Shown piece by piece: positions 34,485 through 49,678 of a stretch of DNA of 64,000 nt. The translations under genes and the position numbers were made by a program. The stretch is from Alphaproteobacteria bacterium (lineage in GTDB: Bacteria > Pseudomonadota > Alphaproteobacteria > Micavibrionales > Micavibrionaceae): contig JAUHXT010000001.1 of NCBI GenBank assembly GCA_030426925.1, forward strand, positions 62,001-126,000, in the 5' to 3' direction. The notes under the pieces are model-generated. The model had not been told where the DNA came from. It saw only the letters and a program-made list of their open reading frames with translations, and searched no databases. Numbering within the stretch: the stretch's first letter is position 1; every line of letters begins with the position of its first letter.

Positions 34485-35264
34485 ATGTCTTTCCGCATCA
34501 AGCATTTTACAGAAAATGTTTCGAGCAAAACTGTCCTGGCGCTGACACTGGCGGCCTTGGTTTCTGCTTGTTCCACAACGGGTAGCCAATCCGGCGATTA
34601 TGCCGCGATGGATCCGTTTGAAGAAATGAACCGTGGCGTGTTCGCCTTTAACGAAGGCGTCGATAAAGCGGTTTTGCAGCCGGTTGCCAAAGGATACCGC
34701 GCTGTTACGCCGAAGGGTATTCGTATTGCCTTGCGCAATTTCCTGCGTAACCTGCGTAGCCCGGTTGATTTAGGAAACCAGATTTTGCAGGGCGATGTTG
34801 AAGGTGCCACCAACCAGACAGCCCGTACGTTTATCAACACGCTGGCCGGTTTCGGCGGTATTGTTGACGTTGCCGAAATGGGCGGTATTCCGTATGAGCC
34901 GGAAGATTTCGGCCAGACACTGGCAACATGGGGTGTCGATCACGGCGCGTATCTTGTTGTGCCGCTGTTAGGGCCATCCAGTATGCGTGACGGCTTTGGT
35001 ACGGCCGTGGACAGCATTGCTGATCCGCTGCGTATCTACATGTTCAATATCAACGAGGAAGAATGGCACTATACCCGCATGGCGGCCAGTGTCGTGGACA
35101 AGCGTGAAGAGTTGATCGATGTTATCGACGACTTGCGTAAGAACTCGTTCGATTATTATGCGGCCCTTCGAAGCGCATATTTCCAGAATCGTGAATCTCT
35201 TGTGAATGACAAGGACCCGAACTTTACAACAGGTCCGTCCATTCCTGATTACGACGATTTTTAA
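34485..35264 (+). CDS. mlaA: MlaA family lipoprotein (VacJ)
   Basis: A 259-residue outer-membrane lipoprotein that removes surface phospholipids to keep outer-membrane asymmetry. A lipobox (LVSAC, cysteine near 29) follows a signal peptide. MlaA features: DPFEEMNRGVFAFNEGVD, a central NFLRNLRSPVDLGNQ, and PYEPEDFGQTLATWGVDHGAYLVVPLLGPS. The next gene is mlaC-like; the inner-membrane MlaDEF transporter is not in the window. Confidence 0.94.
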   Translation: MSFRIKHFTENVSSKTVLALTLAALVSACSTTGSQSGDYAAMDPFEEMNRGVFAFNEGVDKAVLQPVAKGYRAVTPKGIRIALRNFLRNLRSPVDLGNQILQGDVEGATNQTARTFINTLAGFGGIVDVAEMGGIPYEPEDFGQTLATWGVDHGAYLVVPLLGPSSMRDGFGTAVDSIADPLRIYMFNINEEEWHYTRMAASVVDKREELIDVIDDLRKNSFDYYAALRSAYFQNRESLVNDKDPNFTTGPSIPDYDDF

Positions 35265-35351
35265 TCACGGGTTTTTCCGGTAATATAGAATTGTCACCTG
35301 ATGCATTAGCGTGTATTTAGGAAAGCGTTGTTTATATTACAGGAGAAAGTT

Positions 35352-36050
35352 ATGGCAATGAAAACGGTTCTGACGATTTTGCCCGCAACAGCTATAGTTT
35401 TGTGTTCCGGTATCCACACCGCCGATGCCCGTATGCCTATATCTTCTGTTCATGCGCCTTCTTATATTTATGACGGTCTGGTTCCGATCGCCGGCAAAAA
35501 CCCGGTCAGTGAAGACAGCCAAAGTCAGGTTACAAAAGGCGCCGAAAATTTCATTGATTCCATGGGCAAGCGCGCAATCGGTTTCCTTGGAAGTTCTTCT
35601 ATGTCCAAGGAGCAAAAAGCGAGCGAATTCCGCAAATTGCTAAAAGACAGTTTTGATCTTACGACGATTGGCCGTTTTTCCTTGGGACGTTACTGGAATG
35701 CCGCGACGGACAGTCAAAAACGGGAATACCAAAGCCTGTTCGAAAATCTGGTCGTGGATGTTTACTCCGCCCGTTTTGACGAGTACCAGGGGCAGGCGCT
35801 GGAGATACGCTCCAGCCGTCCGGAAGGTACGAAAGACACGATTGTTAAATCATTTATTGTCGATAAAAACGGAACAGAATTCAGCGTTGACTGGCGTGTG
35901 CGTTATAAAGACGGTCGCTATAAAATCATCGACGTGATTATCGAAGGGGTCAGCATGTCATTGACCCAGCGTTCTGATTTCTCCAGTGTCATTCAACGCG
36001 GCGGCGGAAATGTTGATGTGTTGATCGCGCATCTTAGACGACAGGATTAA
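35352..36050 (+). CDS. mlaC: MlaC/Ttg2D-like phospholipid-binding periplasmic protein
   Basis: A 232-residue periplasmic shuttle for phospholipids between MlaA and the inner membrane. Signal peptide about 1-23 (cleavage after ADA). The mature sequence has the MlaC pattern: KLLKDSFDLTTIGRFSLGRYW, a mid-region of YQSLFENLVVDVYSARF, and IIEGVSMSLTQRSDFSSV near the end. AGGAGA at 35340-35345 sits six bases before this ATG, favouring it over the upstream frame. It converges with the DotA-like array, ending five bases before the last gene of that array. Confidence 0.9.
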   Translation: MAMKTVLTILPATAIVLCSGIHTADARMPISSVHAPSYIYDGLVPIAGKNPVSEDSQSQVTKGAENFIDSMGKRAIGFLGSSSMSKEQKASEFRKLLKDSFDLTTIGRFSLGRYWNAATDSQKREYQSLFENLVVDVYSARFDEYQGQALEIRSSRPEGTKDTIVKSFIVDKNGTEFSVDWRVRYKDGRYKIIDVIIEGVSMSLTQRSDFSSVIQRGGGNVDVLIAHLRRQD

Positions 36051-36055
36051 TTCCC

Positions 36056-39000
36056 TTATAAACGCTGTACGCCGTTACTGCGAAGAAGCTCTTCGATGCC
36101 GTCGTCGGCGCTCTTCATTTTGTCCGTGATTCTTTTGTACTCGGCTTTGTATCTGGCTTCCAGATTGCCGATTCCTCCTAGATCCTCTATACGGCGAACG
36201 ATTTTACCCTGTTTCGCGTCCAGGGTGTCCAGCGTTCCTTTGAACTGAGAATCAAACAGGGCTTGTTTACGCTCACGCTTCAGCCTGTCTCTTACCTGTT
36301 CTGCTGTCTGTGTTCCATCACCGGTAATGTTCGGGTCATTATCAATGTCTTCGTCAATTTTTCGGAATTCTTCTCTCATTTCAGAAAGTTTTGTTTCCTT
36401 CGCGCTTACCTGTCTTGGCAGAAGGGCATCATCTGTGAACAGGAAGATCATTTCGTTTCTACTGCGTCTTGCAACTTCCGGCCCGATGCCCTGCAGGTTC
36501 TCTTTCACAGAGTCTATACCCTCGCTCAGCTGTGATCCCAATGCGCCGGCACCGATTGTAGAATATTTCATCAGGCTTTCAGCGCCGCGTGACGGTTCGT
36601 TGTCGTCGTTAAAGCTGGACGTACCGGAACCGAACCAGCGCATCATGTTATTCGGAATAAGGTCTATCAGCTTAAACGACGCCATGCCCATCATGTACAC
36701 GATGACGGCGTATAAAATTGTAAAAAAGAATTCATCCACGACGTTCCGTGTGAATTTCTCTGAGCCGGGTAAGTCCCCCAACGCGTCCTCCCCCAGACCG
36801 GACAGGGCGCCGGTTACACAACCGCCATTTTGCATGGCGTCCGGATCTGCGCCGGCTACGCTGGTGACGACCAGGAAGAAGACTTCGTTCAAGGCTTTTA
36901 CCTGTGCGGCGAATATTACGATTGCCGCCAGAAGTCCGAATATGATCATAATCGGACGCAGGAATATTTCGAGCAAGAGCATGTAGCCTGCCGCTGCCGC
37001 CTGCCCGGGCAGGCCTTCGGCATCAATGCGCAGGTGAGCCAGCGCCCATAAAGGGACACCGACCATGGCTTCGAACACACTTTTGACCCAGCCGCCGACA
37101 GCAAAGAAGAAATAGATGAATGGCAGGAATGGCAGGACATAGTACAGGACAAACCCGATCGAAAGACCGATTCCGGCAATTGTTCCATAGAAACCGGACA
37201 GGGAATTCAAGGCTGATCCAGCGCTTCCCGGTACAAGACCAGTACCGCCAAAAATACCGAAACCCGCGCTGACGGCCAAGTTCTGGATTGCGTTTTCAAT
37301 CAATCCTTTTCCTATGGCTGATAACTGTGCCAGTGGGTGAATGTCTGTATTCTGACACATATCGAACAGGCCTTCCGTGCCTAAAATCGCGCTGATCGTA
37401 TTGATGAATACGTTGTCGGTATCCGTCAGGACGTGCGTAGCCCGCGCATCGGTGCGGGTGTCGCGTTGTTCCCAAAATGTGAAAATCTGATTGAGCGCAC
37501 GGGCAATATCCGCGTCACCGGATTGCGGGAAGACGAACGGTTCTTCGACAGACAGCTCGGGAGTGAAGCGTTCGCTGGGATGGACCTGCCGGTCGTTTTT
37601 CATGCGTTCCTGACGGATAAATTCCATGGTCCGCGGATATAGCTGCGGGGCAGGGGTGTTCATAGCTGCGGTGGTTAGCGCGCCGTTCTGTTCGGCGATG
37701 CGGTTGTACCAAATTCCTGCACCGGCCCAGCCGAGTTGTGCAATCTCCGGGTCTATACCCTGATCTGTAACGGCAAGCTGAATGCCGACTGCCTGTGCGA
37801 TGATTTGTTCTACCGCAGCGCCCATGGCCGTGATGACATCGCCCCTGAATGCAGCATTCGGGATTGCACTTTGCGGTTCACGCGGCAGGACGGACATAAA
37901 ACGGAACGAGAAGTTTCGGGCATAGGCATCGACAAAGCCGCCATCGGCCCATAAAAGTTTTATCAATTCAAAATAACCATTTTGAATGGCAAAGGACCCT
38001 GGTTGCCCGACATCTGTTGTTTTCAGGACCAGTTCCCCGCAATCGGGGCTGACTCCGCCGCCATAGACCAGGTTACCGTCTTCTACGCCGAAGCGGATGA
38101 TCAGGTTACCGGCGGGTGATTCATCATTCAGGTCGGCGGTCAGAAGGCCAAGGGCAGCGGCGTAGCCCAGCCCTGCGATCGGTGTGTTGTCATCGGGGTC
38201 CGGGCCGTGAATAAGGTAAGCGTCGATTTCCTTGCCGTATTTACGCCCTTCGGCCCACTGGCATGTTTTGGCAACCATCATAAAGGCCGGGATATGCTGT
38301 ACTTCCGGTGTGTTTGGGGTTGCGACCAATGTGCCGTTTGCCCCGAGCGGGTTGTTGACCACCAGATTGAATTGCAGCCAGCCGTTTGTGGCGAGGCTGG
38401 AACCATATTTCGCTACAGATAATGTTATCCATTGTGCGCCGTTCAAACCGTCTGGCAGCGGGATCAAAAGTCCGAAGAATACAATCAGGCGGATCGGCAC
38501 CCAGGCATGAGAAAAGCGTTTACCGAACGGAACGCCGGTATTGGCGGTTTCCGCAATGATGGTCGTGGCGAAATACAGGATAATAAACGTTCCGACAATC
38601 AGCATACCGATGCTGTAGAATTCAAACAATGCATATAACGCCATATGAATTGGCTGGATAGCCACGGCGGCACCGTAAATATCGGTTCCAAATACCAGCG
38701 TCATCATCCGGAAGGCAACGTCGGTTTCCGGGAACGGTGTGACAAAAAAGCTTTCATACCAGCCGCCGCCGGCAAAGGCGGGGTTTGTGATTAATGAGAA
38801 AAACAGGACGATAAACTGCAGTCCCAGCAGGATAATGCCTGTCATAATGGCGAAATAGACCAATACCTGGTCAATATGATCGCGGTCGAATTTCAGGTTT
38901 TTGGACGCTTCCGCCATGACGTGGCGAATACCGTATTTGCCGACAGAAGAGGCGCGCAGATAGGTATGGTTTTTCGGCAGCAGGCCGGCGGTGTTGTAAA

Positions 39001-39127
39001 TCAGTGCAATAAGATAAGCAAGGTTTCCAAACCCGCTACCGACAAGGTCGCGGATCCTCGTCCCGAATTGCGGGAGAAGCGTGTATTTAAAAAACTGCTT
39101 GCGCGTAAAAGGCGCTTTCGCCTGCAT
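36056..39127 (-). CDS. DotA/TraY-like giant membrane protein, paralog 1 (last of four), coiled-coil tail
   Basis: A 1023-residue polytopic protein. Shared features: N-terminal block about 15-80 (FGNLAYLIALIYN, KYGIRHVMAEASKN), hydrophobic segment about 86-112 ending in AFAGG (117-121), two further segments about 168-192 and 208-224, a large presumed periplasmic domain about 225-640 with cysteines, and a C-terminal membrane block about 655-850 containing FFFAVGGWVK and GVPLWALAHLRIDAEGLPG. Its own feature is a soluble, charged tail (about 905-1015) that looks coiled-coil. I see family resemblance to DotA/TraY, the pore-region protein of type IVB secretion; assignment is inference. It closes a four-gene leftward operon. 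Confidence 0.75.
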   Translation of the reverse strand: MQAKAPFTRKQFFKYTLLPQFGTRIRDLVGSGFGNLAYLIALIYNTAGLLPKNHTYLRASSVGKYGIRHVMAEASKNLKFDRDHIDQVLVYFAIMTGIILLGLQFIVLFFSLITNPAFAGGGWYESFFVTPFPETDVAFRMMTLVFGTDIYGAAVAIQPIHMALYALFEFYSIGMLIVGTFIILYFATTIIAETANTGVPFGKRFSHAWVPIRLIVFFGLLIPLPDGLNGAQWITLSVAKYGSSLATNGWLQFNLVVNNPLGANGTLVATPNTPEVQHIPAFMMVAKTCQWAEGRKYGKEIDAYLIHGPDPDDNTPIAGLGYAAALGLLTADLNDESPAGNLIIRFGVEDGNLVYGGGVSPDCGELVLKTTDVGQPGSFAIQNGYFELIKLLWADGGFVDAYARNFSFRFMSVLPREPQSAIPNAAFRGDVITAMGAAVEQIIAQAVGIQLAVTDQGIDPEIAQLGWAGAGIWYNRIAEQNGALTTAAMNTPAPQLYPRTMEFIRQERMKNDRQVHPSERFTPELSVEEPFVFPQSGDADIARALNQIFTFWEQRDTRTDARATHVLTDTDNVFINTISAILGTEGLFDMCQNTDIHPLAQLSAIGKGLIENAIQNLAVSAGFGIFGGTGLVPGSAGSALNSLSGFYGTIAGIGLSIGFVLYYVLPFLPFIYFFFAVGGWVKSVFEAMVGVPLWALAHLRIDAEGLPGQAAAAGYMLLLEIFLRPIMIIFGLLAAIVIFAAQVKALNEVFFLVVTSVAGADPDAMQNGGCVTGALSGLGEDALGDLPGSEKFTRNVVDEFFFTILYAVIVYMMGMASFKLIDLIPNNMMRWFGSGTSSFNDDNEPSRGAESLMKYSTIGAGALGSQLSEGIDSVKENLQGIGPEVARRSRNEMIFLFTDDALLPRQVSAKETKLSEMREEFRKIDEDIDNDPNITGDGTQTAEQVRDRLKRERKQALFDSQFKGTLDTLDAKQGKIVRRIEDLGGIGNLEARYKAEYKRITDKMKSADDGIEELLRSNGVQRL

Positions 39128-39161
39128 TTAACTTACGTTCCTTCCGTTTGTTTTCTCATTG

Positions 39162-41930
39162 TTATTGCCCACCGTTATCACCGCTTTTCAGCTGTTTTAA
39201 CAAGCCTTGCCCTGCGGAGCTGAAGAAGGAGCTACCCTGTTGTGCTGCACCTTGCAGTTTACCCATGATAGCGCCGCCGCCCACAGTAATACGCTGTGTC
39301 AGACCTTCGGCTGTTTCGCCGCGTTCATCGTTGAATGTTTTTACGTTTGCACCCATCCAACGCATAATTTCATTCGGGATCTGGTCGATCAGTTTGAACG
39401 ACGACATGCCAATCATGTACACGATGACGGCGTAAATGACGGTGAAGAAAAATTCATCAACGGGCCCGCGCAGATATTGTTCCTGTCCCAGTTCAAAGAG
39501 GTTGGTTGATCCGGTGATTGTACAAGCCGTCCGGTCAACCGGATCATGGCCGGAAATGTTGGACACAACCAGATAGAAAATATCATTCAATACTTTCACC
39601 ATTGCGGCGTAAATTGTAATGGATGCCAGCAATCCCAGAACAATCATGAACGGCCGCAGGAAGATTTCCAGTATCAGGAAATAACCGTACGAACCGCCGG
39701 GGCCGGGCAGGCCTTCGCCATCAATGCGTAAATGCGCCAATGCCCAAAGCGGTACACCGACCATGGCTTCGAAAATTCCTTTTATCCAGCCGCCGACCGC
39801 GAAGAAGAAATACAGGAACGGCATGAATGGAATCACGTAATACAACAGGAATCCGATCAAAATACCGACCCCGGCAATTGTGCTGAAGAAGCCGGAGGCA
39901 GCGCCGAGCGCGGATCCCATGTGCGGAGAGAGGATATATGCCGCACCGCCCATGACGCCACTGGCCAGAGAATATCCAAGGTTACGGATCGCCGCTTCGA
40001 TCAGGCCCTTGCCCAAGCTGGCCATTTGCGCCAGCGGATGAATATCGGCGTTTTTACACATATCGAACAGACCTTGCGTTCCGAAAATTGCGTTGATAGT
40101 GTCGATGAACGAGTTTTCCTGGTTGTCCGCTTGGGTTCTAAGCGCATCACCGCCATATCCGCGTTTTTCCCAGTACTGGAAACTGATATTAAAGACTCTG
40201 GCAAGTTCTGGATCGTTCGGATTTTGAAATTTGATTTCCTTACCCTGTTCCATTTCTGGTTTGAAACGGTCGCTCGGGTTGATGTTGTCGTCCTGTTGCA
40301 GTTTTTGTTCCAGAACATATTCCATGATCAGCGGGTATTTATAAATACGCGGAGGCTGGTTCAGTGCCGTTACAAATCCGCCATTAACCTGCGCCAGCTT
40401 GTTGTACCATATTGCCGCCCCGGCCCATCCCAGATTTAATCCGTCTTCATCTATATTCCAAGTGTCGCTGGCGGCCAGTTCTGCCTGGGCAAGTAGAGCA
40501 CAGCTATCCACCACCTGTTTTAAGTTTTGCCGTTCTTCTTCAAGCGCACCGTCTTCGTGGAATATTCTTAATGCATCTTCAAGGAACGCTATTTCACTGC
40601 GGTTATAAGAACTACTTAGCTCTACCATAGCGTATGTAGTGGCAATAGCTTGTGTTGCGGATAGTGCAACGTATACGCCGCATGGATCTTCCAGAGAGTT
40701 GTTGTAAACAAGCGCTTGACCCAGATAGTAATACCCTTCCTGTATCAATTCAAATCCGGGTTCCTGTGTCGCAAAAGTATCTATAATAATTTCACCGCAA
40801 TACGGCTTTACCATACCTTTTTCATCTGTGTAGGTGGTATCATGGTGACCAACCTTGATATGAATTTGTCCTCCTTCGGAAAACTCTACAGCCTGTTCAA
40901 ACGGTGTATCATAGTAAATAAGGTGTTCCGCCGCATCACCAGTTCCTTTGACTATGTATGCTTCAATCTCTCCGGCACCAAACTGATAGCCCGCCTCCAT
41001 GAAGCCTTCTCCCTCATAAACGCTATCGCACATCAGCATAAGACCGGAAAAAGACTGAAGGTGTGATACTTCCGGCCCGCGCGGCAATGCGACGAGCGTT
41101 TCCCGCTCACCGATATAAGTGCCGCCACCTCCCGTTACGATCTGATTAAAGTAAATCCAGCCATTTGTCGCGAAACCGGAGCCCCATTTTGCGGAGTATA
41201 ATGTAATGAATTGTCCGGCATTCATACCAAAGCCGATAGGGATCAGCAGGCCAAAGGCAACGATGATACGGACAGGAACCCACACATGATTAAAACGTTT
41301 GCCGAAAGGTGTTCCCGTTTGTGCTGTTTCAATCAAAACCGCGCCGATAAAGTACGAAATGATCAGCGCACCGATAACGATGATGCCCAGACTGTAGATA
41401 ATGAACATGCCGTGCAGGGCTTCCTGAAAATCCGCCATGATATTAAGGTATGTCAGTTCTTGTGAGCCAAAGAAGCCGGGTATGCCGAATACCATGTCCA
41501 GAAGACGGAATGCGATATCCTGATCCGGATTTTCGGTGAGAACGTATTCATGTAAACTGCCCGGAAGGCCGATGGCCGCGGCGTGCGCGCTTTTTGCAAA
41601 AAAGCTCATCAAAACCAGGCCAAATTGAAAGGCGACAAGAATGATGCCGAAGAAAATAGCGAAGAAGATCAGAATCTGATCAATGTTTTTCCAACTGAAT
41701 TTTAAGTGCCGTCTTGCTTCTGAAATAACGTGCCGAACGCCGAATTGTCCTGACATGCTGGAACGCAGATACGGGTGGTTGGACGGTAAAATGCCAACAG
41801 CGTTGTAGATCAGGGCAATAATGAAAGCCAGGGAGGTAAAGCCGTCCTTGGAGATCTCGCGCAGGCGCGGCTTTATGCCCGGAAGGAACATATAGCGTAA
41901 TACGTCTTTTTTTGTTATCGCGATATTCAT
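39162..41930 (-). CDS. DotA/TraY-like giant membrane protein, paralog 2
   Basis: A 922-residue paralog, 34 bases upstream of paralog 1. N-terminal block (FTSLAFIIALIYN, QFGVRHVISEARRH), a segment ending in SAHAAA near 113-118, a presumed periplasmic domain with LMLMCDSVYEG, VKPYCGEII and FDMCKNADIHPLAQ, and the conserved C-terminal block with FFFAVGGWIK and GVPLWALAHLRIDGEGLPG. The tail is short and Gln/Gly/Ser-rich (GKLQGAAQQGSSFFSSAGQG). In E. coli IncI and Legionella the homologue is a single gene; here this is one of four. Start ATG at 41930 with a GGAG/AGGA site. Confidence 0.75.
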   Translation of the reverse strand: MNIAITKKDVLRYMFLPGIKPRLREISKDGFTSLAFIIALIYNAVGILPSNHPYLRSSMSGQFGVRHVISEARRHLKFSWKNIDQILIFFAIFFGIILVAFQFGLVLMSFFAKSAHAAAIGLPGSLHEYVLTENPDQDIAFRLLDMVFGIPGFFGSQELTYLNIMADFQEALHGMFIIYSLGIIVIGALIISYFIGAVLIETAQTGTPFGKRFNHVWVPVRIIVAFGLLIPIGFGMNAGQFITLYSAKWGSGFATNGWIYFNQIVTGGGGTYIGERETLVALPRGPEVSHLQSFSGLMLMCDSVYEGEGFMEAGYQFGAGEIEAYIVKGTGDAAEHLIYYDTPFEQAVEFSEGGQIHIKVGHHDTTYTDEKGMVKPYCGEIIIDTFATQEPGFELIQEGYYYLGQALVYNNSLEDPCGVYVALSATQAIATTYAMVELSSSYNRSEIAFLEDALRIFHEDGALEEERQNLKQVVDSCALLAQAELAASDTWNIDEDGLNLGWAGAAIWYNKLAQVNGGFVTALNQPPRIYKYPLIMEYVLEQKLQQDDNINPSDRFKPEMEQGKEIKFQNPNDPELARVFNISFQYWEKRGYGGDALRTQADNQENSFIDTINAIFGTQGLFDMCKNADIHPLAQMASLGKGLIEAAIRNLGYSLASGVMGGAAYILSPHMGSALGAASGFFSTIAGVGILIGFLLYYVIPFMPFLYFFFAVGGWIKGIFEAMVGVPLWALAHLRIDGEGLPGPGGSYGYFLILEIFLRPFMIVLGLLASITIYAAMVKVLNDIFYLVVSNISGHDPVDRTACTITGSTNLFELGQEQYLRGPVDEFFFTVIYAVIVYMIGMSSFKLIDQIPNEIMRWMGANVKTFNDERGETAEGLTQRITVGGGAIMGKLQGAAQQGSSFFSSAGQGLLKQLKSGDNGGQ

Positions 41931-41948
41931 TTTATTCCTGCATTACTC

Positions 41949-44717
41949 CTATTCGTACTTCTGCCTTAATGAATCCTGTTGTATTTTGTCCTGTGCCATT
42001 TCACCAATTTCACCACCGGCTTTTTTCAGGTTTTCGCCCGCGCCTTGCAGGCTTTGACCGATCATACCGCCGCTCACAGTCACTTTCTGGATCAAACCGC
42101 CCGGATCAGTGCTGCCTTCATCGTTGAATGTCTTCACGTTTGCGTTCATCCAACGCAGGATACTGTTCGGAACCATATCGATCAGCTTGAAACATGACAT
42201 GCCGATCATATAAACCAGGATGGCGTAGACAATGGTGAAGAAGAATTCATCAATGGGGCCGCGGAATTGTTCCAGTGTGTTAATACGTTCCAGTGGCGAT
42301 GCTTCGTTAATCCCGCAGAATCCGACGGAGTTACTTTCGAACCCGGTCAGGTTTGAGATTACAATGAAGAAGATGTCGTTCAGTACCTTTACCATAGCGG
42401 TGAAGATAAGGATCGAGGAGATTAATCCCAGTACAATCATAATCGGGCGGAAGAATATCTCAAAGATCAGGAAATACCCGTCTGCGGCCGCATCGCCGGG
42501 CAGTCCTTCCCCATCAATGCGTAAGTGAGCCAGCGCCCAGAGCGGTACACCGACCATGGCCTCAAATAATCCTTTGACCCATCCGCCGACGGCGAAGAAG
42601 AAATACAGGAACGGCATGAACGGAATGACGTAGAACAGAATAAAGCCAACAAGCAGGCCGATGGCTGCTACGGCCGAGAAAAATCCTGCACCGGCCATGC
42701 CGATTGCGCCTGCATGGGCATCAAAGAGGTATGCAAATCCCCCTGCGGCACCACTGGCGACAGAAAAGCCGAGGTTCCGGATAGAGCTTTCAATCAATGT
42801 GCGTCCCATCATTGCAAGCTGGGCCAGCGGGTGAATGTCGTTGTTTTTACACATATCGAACAGCCCGCCTGTTCCCAGCACGGCGTTGATAGCATCAAGG
42901 AATTTGTTGTTGGTTTGCCCTGTGTGTGACAGACCGGCGGTGTCGGAGCGGTATCCGCCGCTTTCCCAGAAATTCTGTATGATACACATGGTACTGGAAT
43001 AATCCGAGTGGCCGGGCATCTGGAAGTTAATTTCCCGCCCCTGTTCACTTTCCGGACAGAACCGTGTTCGTGCCAGGATGTTATCGTCCTGCTGCATTTT
43101 TTCTTTTTTCACGTACTCCATGATCGCAGGATATTTTGTTGGGCGAGGAACGGCATGCGCGGCTACGGCTATTGTTCCGTTGACCTGTGCGACCTTGTTG
43201 TACCAGATGGCGGCGCCGGCCCAGCCATATAAATAAAGCTCTGGATCGACTTCCCAGATGTCAGACTCCCTGTCCATATTGACAGCTTCGACAATACAAT
43301 TCTGTAAGTTGTTATACATGTTCACATAAGACGCGTTCTTGAATTCGGAATCGGGCAATCCGTTTTCCTCATAAGGAAGGCCATAGAGTTCGTGTACGGG
43401 CGGTTCCATGATGCGGTTGTCTACGGCGGCATAAGCACGCATAAAGTTATGGGCGTAACCTATAATTTCCTCTACATATGCCGCACCGCCATTGCCGATA
43501 CCGTTATCGCCAGCGCAGGCAGATTGCAGGCCGCCAGTCCACCATGCCTGCATAATGCTGTACAGGCTTTCCTGAATAAAGTATGCGCCGCTTTCCGGAT
43601 CCAGTGACGTTGTTGACAGTTGGAGTTCCCCGCAATCCGGACGGACAAAGCCTTTTTCATCGGTAAAAGTCGGGTCCAGCTGCCCGAAACGAATATAGAT
43701 ATCGCCGTTGTTGGACATCTCAAGCGCTGTTGCATAATTGGTTCCCGCCAGCTCGGACGCGGCAACGCCGATGTCGTCGCCTGTCGATACGACATAGGCG
43801 TCAATGACGTGTCCGTATTTGTCTTCTTCCGCGTAATCACAGGCATGGGCCATCATGAAGAATGCGGGCAGGTGCATCATTTCCGGCGCGTTCGGCACTC
43901 CAACCAGCGTTTCCGGATCACCCAGGTAAGTTCCTTGCAGGGTCTGGTTGAAGGTAAGCCAGCCGTTGGTTGCAAAGTTAGAGCCGAATTTGGCTGCGTA
44001 CAGTGTAATCCACTGGCCGCTGTTCAGGCCGGAAGCGATGGGAATGATCAGGCCGATGGCGGCGACAAGCCGTAACGGTGCCCATGCGTGGTTAAAACGT
44101 TTTCCAAACGGTGTGCCTGTATGGGCGGTTTCTGCAACGATGGCTGTCACAAAGTAGGCAAGGATCAGGCAGCCGACGACCAATATGGCCTGACTGTACA
44201 GGGAAAACATATTCTGAAGTCCGACGTGGAAAGCGGGCAACATGCCTTCCACATGGTTTCCGAACAGGTCCGGCACACCAAACACCATATCCAACATGCG
44301 GTAGGCCAAGTCATACTGTTCCTGTGCGGCGGAAATAACGAACCAGTTATCAAACGGCCCGCCGCCCGCGAAGGCCGAGCTTGTCGCCGCCATCAAAATT
44401 AAAATCAGAAACTGTGATACAAACAGTAAAAGCCCTGCCAGAACTGCAAAAAATATTATGACCTGGTCAATTGTTTTAAGGGAGTAATTTATATTTCTGG
44501 ATGCCTCGACAATAACATGGTGTATGCCATATTTCCCTTTATTCTCTTTTTGAAGGTATGGATGGTTGTTTGGCAATATGTTGACAGCATTAAAAACCAG
44601 CGCAATCAGGTAAGACAGGTTTGTAAAACTGTGTTCCGAAAAATGCCGAAAGCGCCCAGCAATGCCGGGCGTTAAAGTGTATGCGAAGAATTTTTTTGCT
44701 AATCCTGTATCCGCCAT
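41949..44717 (-). CDS. DotA/TraY-like giant membrane protein, paralog 3
   Basis: A 922-residue paralog, 18 bases upstream of paralog 2. Shared features are the N-terminal block (FTNLSYLIALVFN, KYGIHHVIVEASRN), a segment ending in SAFAGG, the cysteine-bearing presumed periplasmic domain (MMAHACDYAEE, VRPDCGELQL, FDMCKNNDIHPLAQ) and the C-terminal block (FFFAVGGWVK, GVPLWALAHLRIDGEGLPG). The short polar tail reads as a helix (LQGAGENLKKAGGEIGEMAQ). The ribosome site AAGGGAG lies inside the last codons of paralog 4, 11 bases before the ATG at 44717, implying coupled translation. Confidence 0.75.
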   Translation of the reverse strand: MADTGLAKKFFAYTLTPGIAGRFRHFSEHSFTNLSYLIALVFNAVNILPNNHPYLQKENKGKYGIHHVIVEASRNINYSLKTIDQVIIFFAVLAGLLLFVSQFLILILMAATSSAFAGGGPFDNWFVISAAQEQYDLAYRMLDMVFGVPDLFGNHVEGMLPAFHVGLQNMFSLYSQAILVVGCLILAYFVTAIVAETAHTGTPFGKRFNHAWAPLRLVAAIGLIIPIASGLNSGQWITLYAAKFGSNFATNGWLTFNQTLQGTYLGDPETLVGVPNAPEMMHLPAFFMMAHACDYAEEDKYGHVIDAYVVSTGDDIGVAASELAGTNYATALEMSNNGDIYIRFGQLDPTFTDEKGFVRPDCGELQLSTTSLDPESGAYFIQESLYSIMQAWWTGGLQSACAGDNGIGNGGAAYVEEIIGYAHNFMRAYAAVDNRIMEPPVHELYGLPYEENGLPDSEFKNASYVNMYNNLQNCIVEAVNMDRESDIWEVDPELYLYGWAGAAIWYNKVAQVNGTIAVAAHAVPRPTKYPAIMEYVKKEKMQQDDNILARTRFCPESEQGREINFQMPGHSDYSSTMCIIQNFWESGGYRSDTAGLSHTGQTNNKFLDAINAVLGTGGLFDMCKNNDIHPLAQLAMMGRTLIESSIRNLGFSVASGAAGGFAYLFDAHAGAIGMAGAGFFSAVAAIGLLVGFILFYVIPFMPFLYFFFAVGGWVKGLFEAMVGVPLWALAHLRIDGEGLPGDAAADGYFLIFEIFFRPIMIVLGLISSILIFTAMVKVLNDIFFIVISNLTGFESNSVGFCGINEASPLERINTLEQFRGPIDEFFFTIVYAILVYMIGMSCFKLIDMVPNSILRWMNANVKTFNDEGSTDPGGLIQKVTVSGGMIGQSLQGAGENLKKAGGEIGEMAQDKIQQDSLRQKYE

Positions 44718-44725
44718 TTATAGGG

Positions 44726-47700
44726 TTACTCCCTTTCAGTTGGCGGTGCGTCAGGCGTTCCTGTGTCTCCGGATGACGTGTCGCCGCCATCACCGCCGCC
44801 GCCTGTGTCACCACCACTATCACCGCCGCCGCCTGTATCTCCACCGCCGCCGGTGCCGGTACCGGTGCCACTACCTGTGCCGCTGCCCGTATCTCCGCCG
44901 CCTGATGTTTCCGGGGCTGGCGGTTGTGCCGGTGGTGTCTGGGGTTGTTCTTGCTGTTGTAATCTTTCTGCCATTTCTATTGCGCCCGGTACCATTTCAC
45001 CTGCACCTCTGGCAGCAGAGGTCAAGGCGCCACCGATCTGACCGCCGATCATGTGACCACCGATAGCAGCGTACTGAACCATGCCTTCTGTCGGATCATC
45101 GCGCTGATCACCGAAGGTAGACAATGATTGTCCCATCCAGCGAATAATAAAGTTCGGAACCATGTCGATCATTTTGAACGAGGCGGTTGCCATCATGTAA
45201 ATAATGATCGTGTAAATAACGGTATAGAAGAATTCGTCCACGACATTGCGCCGGAAGATTTCGATCGCTTCTCCGACATCTCCGCCGCCGACATCGGGCT
45301 GTGCTATGTCCGGTTCATAACCGCTCAGGTTCACGATAACCAGATTGAAAATTTCGTGCAGTATGTGCGCCAGCGCCGTGAAGATGGCGAAACCACCAAC
45401 AAGTCCAAATACGGTCAGGATAGGCCGGATGAAGATTTCGAAGATCAGGAAATATCCGTTGTTGGCCGAGTTTCCGGGGAAGCCGTCACCATCAATACGC
45501 AGGTGAGCCAGTGCCCACAAAGGTGCGCCGACCATGGCTTCAAAAATTGTTTTGACCCATGCGCCGACCGCAAAGAAGAAATAAATGAAGGGCAGGAACG
45601 GGACAACGTAATACAAAGTAAAGCCGATACCCAGACCGATTGTCGCGATCGACAGGAAGAAGCCGCTCAATGCCTGCGCGCTTGCGCCGACATGTGGATC
45701 CAGCGCCGTTCCCGCACCGCCTGCGGCGGCGAACATAATAGCGCGGCCAAGATTTTCAATTGCACTGTCAACGATTCCCTTGCCCAGCGCGATTAACTGC
45801 ACCATCGGGTGTGTTCCTACAGCGCACCCCTCACGCCAGTTATCGGGCGCACCTGTCGGTCCTGGGAAGGGGTCGATCATACAAAACAGGCCATATGTTC
45901 CGAACAGCATGTTAATAGCATCGAAAAAGATATTTCCCTGAATCGGACTTTCGTTGGTTGTTTGGTCGTTGGCCCAGTACTTATAAGATTCATTCATGGA
46001 CTGGGCGACAATCAGGTTACCGGTTTGGTCAATTGACGGAATGGGCGTGTTTTCAGCAAGGTTCGGGTTGAACCGCTCACTTCCCAGGCTAGCCCCGTCC
46101 TGTTTCTGGCGCTCCTTTTCAACCAGTTCCATCAGTTCCGGGTAACTTTTGGCTGTCGGCACCGTATATACTGCATCGAAAAACTTTCCGTTAATATCGG
46201 CAAGGTCGTTATAGGCAATACCGGCGCCGCCCCATCCGCGTGCCAGAATTTCCGGACGGACAATCAGGTTCAACTGGGCACGGAACAGGTTGAATAATCC
46301 TGTTACATAACCGCTCATTTGCGCCTGCATGACCGTTAACACGGCTTCCTTGACGGCTGTTGGCGGCTCATAACGCAGATCGGCACACTCTTCGGCATCC
46401 AGCAGGATTCCGGCTTTCCAGCAATCACGGTCATCGAGAGGCTGGTCATTCGTTACTATTAAAGCTCTTGGGAAACGTTCACCCAATGCACGCAAAGTTG
46501 GATGATCCCATAGTGCACGGACAAGGTTATAATAAGCTTCCTGTACGGCTTCCGCCTGTACACCACGATTATCGTCACCGTCAAAGGCGGCAAGCGGCAC
46601 GGTAACTTTCCCGCAATACGGTTTAACGTAGCCGGTTTCGTCGGGGTATTCCGCCGGATCATGATGCCCAAACGTAATGACGATATCGCCGCTTTGGAAA
46701 AATGCCTTGGCGCCGATGTAATCAGTACCTTCAAAGTTCAATGCCTGCGTGCCGGTGGTCAGGTATGGTTGGATCAGGATACCTTCGGCATCGCCGGGTG
46801 CAGGGCAGTGGTTCGCGGCGCCTGGCGGTTTTACACCAATACAGTATGCTTCACGGCAGGTGTGGATGACGGCCATCAGTGCAACAAGTTCATCAATCTG
46901 CGGTGTTTGCGGGCGGGCCAGAAGTGTCTGGGTCTGAACGCCCATCACGTTTTCCAGGCCGTTGTTGTAAACTAGCCAGCCGTTGGTGGCGAGGCCGGAA
47001 CCCATGCGCGCGGCAACCAGCGTGATGTACTGGCTGGCGTTAAAGCCCCAGTTCAAAGGAACCAGCAGACCTACGGCAACAACCAGACGGAACGGCGCGT
47101 AAATGTGTGAGAAGCGTTTGCCGAACGGTGTTCCTGTTTGTGCGGTTTCGGCAATTACCACGACCACGTAGTACAGGAAAATCAGAACGGCGACGACAAG
47201 CAGAGCAAAATTATAAAACTGGAACAGGGCGTGCAGGCCGGCATGGAACGGTGTGGGCAGTGTACCGTTAATGGCAGAGCCAAAGAAATCCGGAATTCCG
47301 AACACGTGGTCTAGCAGCAAAAATGCAATATCGGTCTGCGGGTTCGGGGTTGCGAACAATCCCTGAAACACGCCACCGGCATAGGCACTGTTGATGATGA
47401 ATCCCAGGATGAGGGCAAAAAACTGTAACAGCAGGACTATAACGCCAGCCATGATGGCAAAGAAGACAATGACCTGATCAATATTTTTACGGCTTATTAC
47501 AATATGGTTTGCGGCAGCCATGATGGCCTGCCGCGCGTTGAACTTTCCGATATTTGCCGGGTTTGTGTAGGGGTGGTTTGCGGGCAGGATCCGCACTGCC
47601 TGATACACCTGTGCAATCAGGAACGCGAAATAGCCGAATCCGGATGTAAACAGTTCCTGTAATCTTGGAAGAATACGCGGCATGAAGAGATAGCCCGCGA

Positions 47701-47755
47701 TATCGCCAGTCTTGATTTTTCTCTCAGTATTAAATGTGGGTACGTTGTGTGTCAT
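44726..47755 (-). CDS. DotA/TraY-like giant membrane protein, paralog 4 (first in operon), Gly-rich tail
   Basis: A 1009-residue paralog that starts the operon. Same N-terminal block (GYFAFLIAQVYQ, KFNARQAIMAAANH), a segment ending in SAYAGG, presumed periplasmic domain with AVIHTCREAYC and VKPYCGKVTV, and C-terminal block (FFFAVGAWVK, GAPLWALAHLRIDGDGFPG). It is the most divergent of the four: the FDMCKN-type motif is replaced by FCMIDPF...REGC. The C-terminus is a Gln/Pro segment then a Gly/Asp/Thr/Ser-rich low-complexity tail (about 951-1000), unlike the other three. It follows the ettA terminator by about 110 bases, so its own promoter must lie there. Confidence 0.75.
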   Translation of the reverse strand: MTHNVPTFNTERKIKTGDIAGYLFMPRILPRLQELFTSGFGYFAFLIAQVYQAVRILPANHPYTNPANIGKFNARQAIMAAANHIVISRKNIDQVIVFFAIMAGVIVLLLQFFALILGFIINSAYAGGVFQGLFATPNPQTDIAFLLLDHVFGIPDFFGSAINGTLPTPFHAGLHALFQFYNFALLVVAVLIFLYYVVVVIAETAQTGTPFGKRFSHIYAPFRLVVAVGLLVPLNWGFNASQYITLVAARMGSGLATNGWLVYNNGLENVMGVQTQTLLARPQTPQIDELVALMAVIHTCREAYCIGVKPPGAANHCPAPGDAEGILIQPYLTTGTQALNFEGTDYIGAKAFFQSGDIVITFGHHDPAEYPDETGYVKPYCGKVTVPLAAFDGDDNRGVQAEAVQEAYYNLVRALWDHPTLRALGERFPRALIVTNDQPLDDRDCWKAGILLDAEECADLRYEPPTAVKEAVLTVMQAQMSGYVTGLFNLFRAQLNLIVRPEILARGWGGAGIAYNDLADINGKFFDAVYTVPTAKSYPELMELVEKERQKQDGASLGSERFNPNLAENTPIPSIDQTGNLIVAQSMNESYKYWANDQTTNESPIQGNIFFDAINMLFGTYGLFCMIDPFPGPTGAPDNWREGCAVGTHPMVQLIALGKGIVDSAIENLGRAIMFAAAGGAGTALDPHVGASAQALSGFFLSIATIGLGIGFTLYYVVPFLPFIYFFFAVGAWVKTIFEAMVGAPLWALAHLRIDGDGFPGNSANNGYFLIFEIFIRPILTVFGLVGGFAIFTALAHILHEIFNLVIVNLSGYEPDIAQPDVGGGDVGEAIEIFRRNVVDEFFYTVIYTIIIYMMATASFKMIDMVPNFIIRWMGQSLSTFGDQRDDPTEGMVQYAAIGGHMIGGQIGGALTSAARGAGEMVPGAIEMAERLQQQEQPQTPPAQPPAPETSGGGDTGSGTGSGTGTGTGGGGDTGGGGDSGGDTGGGGDGGDTSSGDTGTPDAPPTERE
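44756..44905 (-). repeat. Coding low-complexity Gly/Asp/Thr repeat
   Basis: In-frame GGN-rich codons encode runs of GGGGD and GTG units in the tail of paralog 4. The pattern is irregular and codon-level, so it is protein-driven low complexity, not an array of DNA repeats. Such tracts may vary in length between strains by slippage. Confidence 0.85.
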
Positions 47756-47863
47756 CCCGCCCTGATCGTTCCGTATTTGTTGCCCTGCACAATAAAGGGA
47801 TAAATTTATCTATCCGATACATTATAATAGCATAGCAAAATTGCCCTATTCCAATTTCAACAC

Positions 47864-47892
47864 AAAAAGGCCATATTTGCTATGGCCTTTTC
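47864..47892 (-). terminator. Intrinsic terminator after ettA
   Basis: AAAAGGCCATA (47865-47875) pairs with TATGGCCTTTT (47881-47891), loop TTTGC; on the leftward strand it ends in a T-run. It lies 40 bases past the ettA stop and insulates the DotA-like operon from ettA transcription. Confidence 0.9.
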
Positions 47893-47931
47893 ATATCAAG
47901 TAATTGATTTTACAGAACTATTTAGGTGTAT

Positions 47932-49611
<1,680 letters not shown>

Positions 49612-49678
49612 ATTTGTTCCCATTCTTTGAATTCAGCTGCGTTTTAGCATATAGTCTACGTGAAACAAAGAGGCAAAG

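Follow-up and report, generated by a model that had tools for sequence, protein, structure and literature searches.

The 64,000-nucleotide stretch of alphaproteobacterial DNA analysed here (the window, taken at its full length) contains four consecutive dotA genes whose products, on balance, appear to be DotA (VirB6-like) paralogues serving as subunits in a single chromosomal type IVB secretion system, and would co-assemble as a hetero-oligomeric DotA-IcmX channel. Sequence leaves the choice between such a hetero-oligomer and alternative pores unsettled, the evidence leaning towards the former because of the fixed dotA copy number, the fixed gene order and a parallel expansion of IcmX-like genes. 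A fuller proposal, put forward tentatively, is that the Micavibrio family, to which this genome would belong by kinship, builds a hetero-oligomeric DotA-IcmX protochannel with dedicated positions, i.e. three ancestral DotA classes plus lineage extras and several IcmX-like tips, and that this protochannel is part of a type IVB machine for contact with prey.

The genes, as drawn from the open reading frame (ORF) map with family score and tree placement, are as follows.

44726..47755, minus strand: DotA paralogue, array position 1, class p1, 1009 residues (TIGR04346 223.1 bits; in the p1 clade with the first genes of relatives' triads)
41949..44717, minus strand: DotA paralogue, position 2, class p2, first of two sister copies, 922 residues (TIGR04346 231.9 bits; AlphaFold model; sister of the next gene, support 99)
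39162..41930, minus strand: DotA paralogue, position 3, class p2, second sister copy and lineage-specific duplicate, 922 residues (TIGR04346 228.6 bits; tree)
36056..39127, minus strand: DotA paralogue, position 4, class p3, the last gene of triads, 1023 residues (TIGR04346 232.9 bits; groups with relatives' p3)

The coordinates given in an earlier note on this DNA, made from its letters, were reproduced exactly: all four genes are intact, consecutive and leftward, with intergenic gaps of 8, 18 and 34 bases. The note had taken the products for DotA/TraY proteins, and profile search agrees, with 223-233 bits for all four against TIGR04346 (NCBIfam DotA/TraY; cut-off 100). Against NF033886, the Legionella-type DotA equivalog, they reach 144-156 bits, below the cut-off of 500; by profile score they are members of the DotA/TraY family, yet not close equivalents of Legionella DotA. 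The family profile matches Legionella DotA in the PDB (E 6.8e-59), and a sequence search with the 39162-41930 protein finds Legionella DotA of entry 9ngy at E 1.1e-16. Structure predictions were of monomers, and the AlphaFold2 model of the 41949-44717 protein (predicted local distance difference test, pLDDT, 81) has as its sole significant PDB match in a structure search the DotA of 9ngy (E 4.7e-14, probability 1.00); below this it matches VirB6/TrwI weakly, the next type IV secretion system (T4SS) entry being, at low probability, the R388 VirB5-VirB6 stalk.

Aligned with its three neighbours, the position-1 protein shows identities of 48, 40 and 44%, and about 200 columns are invariant, which speaks against a chance resemblance. 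The four are most alike, at 59-73% identity, in the C-terminal membrane block that the note had called nearly invariant (numbered 691-800 in the 41949-44717 protein); identity falls to about 20% over residues 376-490 of that protein, which form a periplasmic segment, and to 15-30% in the C-terminal tails. The tail at position 1 (window 44726-44950) is of low complexity and rich in Gly, Asp, Ser and Thr, a feature found in none of the other three, and that at position 4 is long and charged. Both C293 and C362 are invariant in 58 of 58 aligned relatives, and 57 of these also have the A-x-A motif that had been remarked behind the second hydrophobic segment. Ahead of the A-x-A site stands an N-terminal leader-like extension of about 117 residues that includes the second hydrophobic segment. 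Since alignment to Legionella DotA starts near residue 15 of the latter, and the extension precedes that point, the window proteins carry a long leader with an extra hydrophobic segment, unlike Legionella DotA; a leader-like extension is also present in DotA of other families of the order.

That the copies might be an assembly artefact, an objection the note itself had raised, is ruled out by their 40-48% identity and by recurrence of the array in independent assemblies. A search of the genome that the window comes from (2.14 Mb in 111 contigs, 99.8% complete) gave no DotA locus besides this one. Promoter-like and terminator-like sites within the cluster are in no excess over shuffled sequence, and this absence of internal signals above chance would fit a single transcription unit.

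Copy number and classes of the dotA genes

Relatives were found by an alignment query, a single-sequence scan of named genomes having given none; the nearest named records are of Micavibrio sp. and Alphaproteobacteria, one being labelled Micavibrionaceae, and it is kinship with these that would place the window's genome in the Micavibrio family. In the Micavibrio family 77 distinct arrays were examined, and those that are bounded, i.e. not cut by a contig or locus end, have three dotA genes in 49 cases, four in two and fewer in none; three more complete four-gene arrays lie near locus edges. Three dotA genes are the family rule and the four-gene form of the window is a variant. Two family genomes (G024, 89% complete, and G036, 79%) yielded no dotA, nor MlaA in a search lacking a positive control; because this neighbour was also not recovered and the genomes are incomplete, missing sequence is most likely the reason.

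Elsewhere in the order, the genomes examined from families f2, f6 and f7 have one dotA, those from family f5 one or two and those from family f3 one or four, by separate duplications. One genome of family f3 (G050, L133 1275-15357) has four dotA genes in tandem that arose independently, the product of one being 1396 residues long. In class and phylum samples multi-dotA genomes outside the Micavibrio family appear rare, with two or three candidates scored per genome and the copy numbers thus lower bounds.

Trees place the first genes of triads, p1, in a class of their own across most of the family. When position labels are laid on the tree for the 49 triads, 6, 9 and 9 changes are required compared to about 43 for shuffled labels, and the three positions are shown by this phylogeny to be old paralogue classes, an ancestral three-gene set across the family. 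The window's extra gene is a lineage-specific duplicate of the second class (support 99), while among other four-gene arrays the duplicated parent is p1 in L155, p2 in L173 and on the p3 side in L190 and L200; by these placements the fourth copies are shown to have arisen independently from different parent classes. In every DotA class 85 columns remain that are at least 95% conserved, and columns that tell one class from another are few, for which reason each copy looks like a working channel subunit. Strong neofunctionalisation of the paralogues was considered and is unsupported, class-specific columns having been sought and few found.

A putative multiplied partner and a single-copy core

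The partner of DotA is presumably encoded by three tandem genes (580, 444 and 790 residues) on contig C26 of the same genome, divergent from the adjoining dotI-dotH-dotG. Their products have no sequence match in Pfam, NCBIfam or the PDB, profile search included, and hence are called IcmX-like. The AlphaFold2 model of the 444-residue protein (pLDDT 85) has, among 350,542 PDB chains, a sole match below 1e-3, namely a 417-residue chain of 9ngy (E 9.5e-4, probability 1.00, template modelling (TM) score 0.31-0.33). Since 9ngy bears the title DotA-IcmX, and DotA is accounted for by another chain, elimination leaves IcmX as the identity of this one. One fold match combined with gene context is a strong lead, not proof, that the array beside dotI encodes IcmX-like proteins. 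Relatives with dotA triads have 2-5 such tandem genes, the window's genome three, and four single-dotA genomes have 0, 0, 1 and 2 beside dotI; both partners in the protochannel, DotA and IcmX, appear to be expanded. The last gene of the array forms its own clade (support 98), with 19 of 22 rows and the copy from the window's genome, and the other copies multiply within lineages; two G022 rows are mislabelled OUT in this tree, with no effect on that clade. The 790-residue protein (L045 10335-12707) has a long N-terminal extension without family match, and in relatives some IcmX-like proteins are up to 1063 residues long.

The earlier note had seen no other Dot/Icm gene, and in the 64 kb there is none; a DotA set without a Dot/Icm system is nevertheless not what the genome holds, as the apparatus is on other contigs. 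These encode DotB (in two halves), DotC, D, F, G, H, I, M and N, IcmT, a DotL-type coupling protein and likely DotO, among them the DotB, C, D, G (IcmE), H and DotL-type homologues that the note had named as worth a survey. The outer-membrane and periplasmic core of a type IVB system is present, with DotC, DotD, DotG and DotH matching PF16932, PF16816, the DotG/IcmE and TrbI models, and PF12293. The order on C26 is dotI, dotH, dotG, dotF, a small pilin-like gene, dotN and an ATPase at the DotO position, with a TraQ-like gene further on; this ATPase, which has no family or PDB sequence match, is a likely DotO by gene order and Walker motifs. On contigs C19 and C2 are dotD, dotC, halves of dotB at contig ends, icmT and pilus genes of PilN, PilP and PilQ type. 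In the C2 segment (L047 605-7818) IcmT is followed by the PilN-, PilP- and PilQ-type type IVB pilus genes, and adjoining it, where the contig begins, is the C-terminal half of DotB. Contig C24 contributes dotM and, in the place of dotL, a TraG/TrwB-type (VirD4/TraG-type) coupling protein; its order (L223 2003-6900) is DotM, a 178-residue protein, the DotL-like coupling protein and then a prepilin-like gene overlapping the DotL end. A TraO-like gene is also present in the genome, with the TraQ-, PilN- and PilP-like genes.

DotH was recovered from 51 of 58 relatives, with exactly one copy in each, and a closed family genome (G022, 2,458,610 bases) combines the dotA triad with a single DotH. In a single-dotA genome of family f7 (G043, L131 8280-16054), dotI-dotH-dotG-dotF-dotA lies at the same Lpt/Mla site as the window's genes, which ties the dotA array to the secretion operon and possibly represents the ancestral arrangement. 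With this, and with a type IVB apparatus in the same genome, the earlier suggestion of a distinct membrane machine finds no support.

Possible accounts: hetero-oligomer, alternative channels and others

Two multiplied partners on a single-copy core are most simply accounted for by a ring and a tip, each of several different subunits. DotA paralogues would co-assemble in one pentameric ring, on which IcmX-like paralogues would stack to form the tip; the near-invariant membrane block may close the ring, the divergent periplasmic segments giving each position a distinct face. The resulting gated conduit would carry protein cargo and not a plasmid, and the cell that receives it on contact would plausibly be prey. 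Protein delivery is favoured because the machinery is conserved, chromosomal and dispersed, and a search for relaxases of MobA/VirD2 type gave none linked to it, and prey is suggested as the target since cultured members of the Micavibrio family prey on other bacteria.

A possible, though less likely, alternative is that each DotA forms its own homopentamer with a matching IcmX, channels being swapped to change gate, substrate or target contact. The low identity of the periplasmic segments, the numerous and variable IcmX-like paralogues and the full conserved core in all DotA classes would be natural for such channels. Swappable modules are, however, expected to be lost at times, yet no bounded family array has fewer than three dotA, and neither one tight cluster of fixed order nor its lack of internal promoter-like signal above chance is what alternate use would lead one to expect. 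Matching pairs are further opposed by IcmX-like numbers that differ from those of dotA. The same lack of one-to-one tracking (2-5 IcmX-like copies) is also awkward for a hetero-oligomeric ring, and it is not the only point to weigh on that side. In part of the family the p2 and p3 genes group by subclade, which makes these classes less stable than p1, and the scarcity of columns that separate classes fits interchangeable subunits as well. Three or four paralogues do not divide evenly into a pentamer, the structure models are of monomers, and the IcmX assignment is from a single fold match of modest TM and gene context, with no sequence-profile match.

Retention of redundant dotA copies for expression level, or by drift, with no specialised roles, is improbable. 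Duplications have arisen repeatedly in the order, in families f3 and f5 as well as in the four-gene arrays within f1, and class-specific columns are few, but redundant copies are expected to be lost or near-identical, whereas here the classes are old, positional and about 40-48% identical, and none of the 51 bounded arrays has dropped below three. More improbable still is an IncI-like conjugation machine moving DNA, despite the TraQ-, TraO-, PilN- and PilP-like genes and the presence of DotA relatives on many conjugative plasmids: its component genes lie on several contigs, lpt, mla and ettA flank the array at a conserved chromosomal site, DotH is single in those 51 relatives, and the sole match in a search confined to relaxases of MobA/VirD2 type is a 185-residue frame on an unlinked contig (C95; L245, 1703-2062).

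IncI systems normally have a single TraY. They resemble the hetero-oligomeric system proposed here in the DotA/TraY family itself, in DotB/C/D/G/H/I-type parts and in a PilN-type pilus secretin, and differ in being plasmid-borne with a relaxase rather than chromosomal, dispersed and without a linked one of MobA/VirD2 type. The closest counterpart is the Legionella pneumophila DotA-IcmX protochannel of Dot/Icm (PDB 9ngy, 9nh0), to which the likeness is in DotA sequence and fold, an IcmX-like partner fold, the dotI-dotH-dotG-dotF order and single-copy DotH. In it DotA and IcmX form, according to published accounts (PMC12857230, PMC12981334), a pentameric protochannel gating secretion with one kind of each subunit, as opposed to the four DotA and three IcmX-like proteins of the window's genome. 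The protochannel is a newly defined type IVB gate, and the pentamers seen so far contain a single kind of DotA and a single kind of IcmX; with both partners apparently multiplied family-wide and DotH single, ring asymmetry, and the reason for VirB6-type multiplication in unrelated systems, become directly testable.

Multiplication of large VirB6-type subunits within one T4SS, in ancient paralogue classes and in alphaproteobacteria, has a parallel in the Rickettsiales rvh system, with up to five VirB6 paralogues, rvhB6a-e (PMC2653234). However, rvh is of the VirB/D4 type IVA, in contrast to a type IVB DotA expanded along with a VirB5-like IcmX candidate, and the two expansions are likely independent. 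If the present proposal is true, the rickettsial multi-VirB6 systems would have an equivalent of type IVB, which would offer a natural way to ask whether the VirB6/VirB5 ring is asymmetric. Another type IVA case, the Bartonella trw system, has amplified trwL and trwJ-H (virB5-7) within one T4SS, as mentioned in the same source (PMC2653234); the Micavibrio-family dotA genes, unlike these, are divergent positional classes and not in one repeated block with IcmX-like genes. For predation, a 2011 genome paper on M. aeruginosavorus ARL-13, a strain outside the present sample, reported that evidence for a type III or type IV system was lacking (PMC3189940). Placing a type IVB apparatus in the family of that cultured predator makes prey attack through such a machine a concrete hypothesis. 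A literature search, with most subscription papers beyond its reach, found no paper joining Micavibrio with DotA.

The chromosomal site

The neighbours of the array serve as markers of the locus and are not parts of the machine.

47932..49623, minus strand: EttA-like ABC-F ATPase, conserved upstream neighbour and locus marker (two ABC_tran domains; EttA > DotA order in dozens of related loci)
47756..47931, minus strand: gap of 176 bases between the ettA-like gene and the first dotA, the likely position of an array promoter (ORF map)
35328..36050, plus strand: MlaC, conserved convergent downstream neighbour (Pfam MlaC; DotA > MlaC < order)
34485..35264, plus strand: MlaA, conserved neighbour and locus marker (Pfam MlaA; synteny)

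No promoter-like site above chance was found in the 47756..47931 gap. The order EttA > DotA x3 > MlaC < MlaA < LptG < recurs in dozens of related loci, in a tally where some genomes are entered twice, as handle and as named record. These arrays at a fixed site in relatives bear out the early impression of an expanded DotA family in an alphaproteobacterium.

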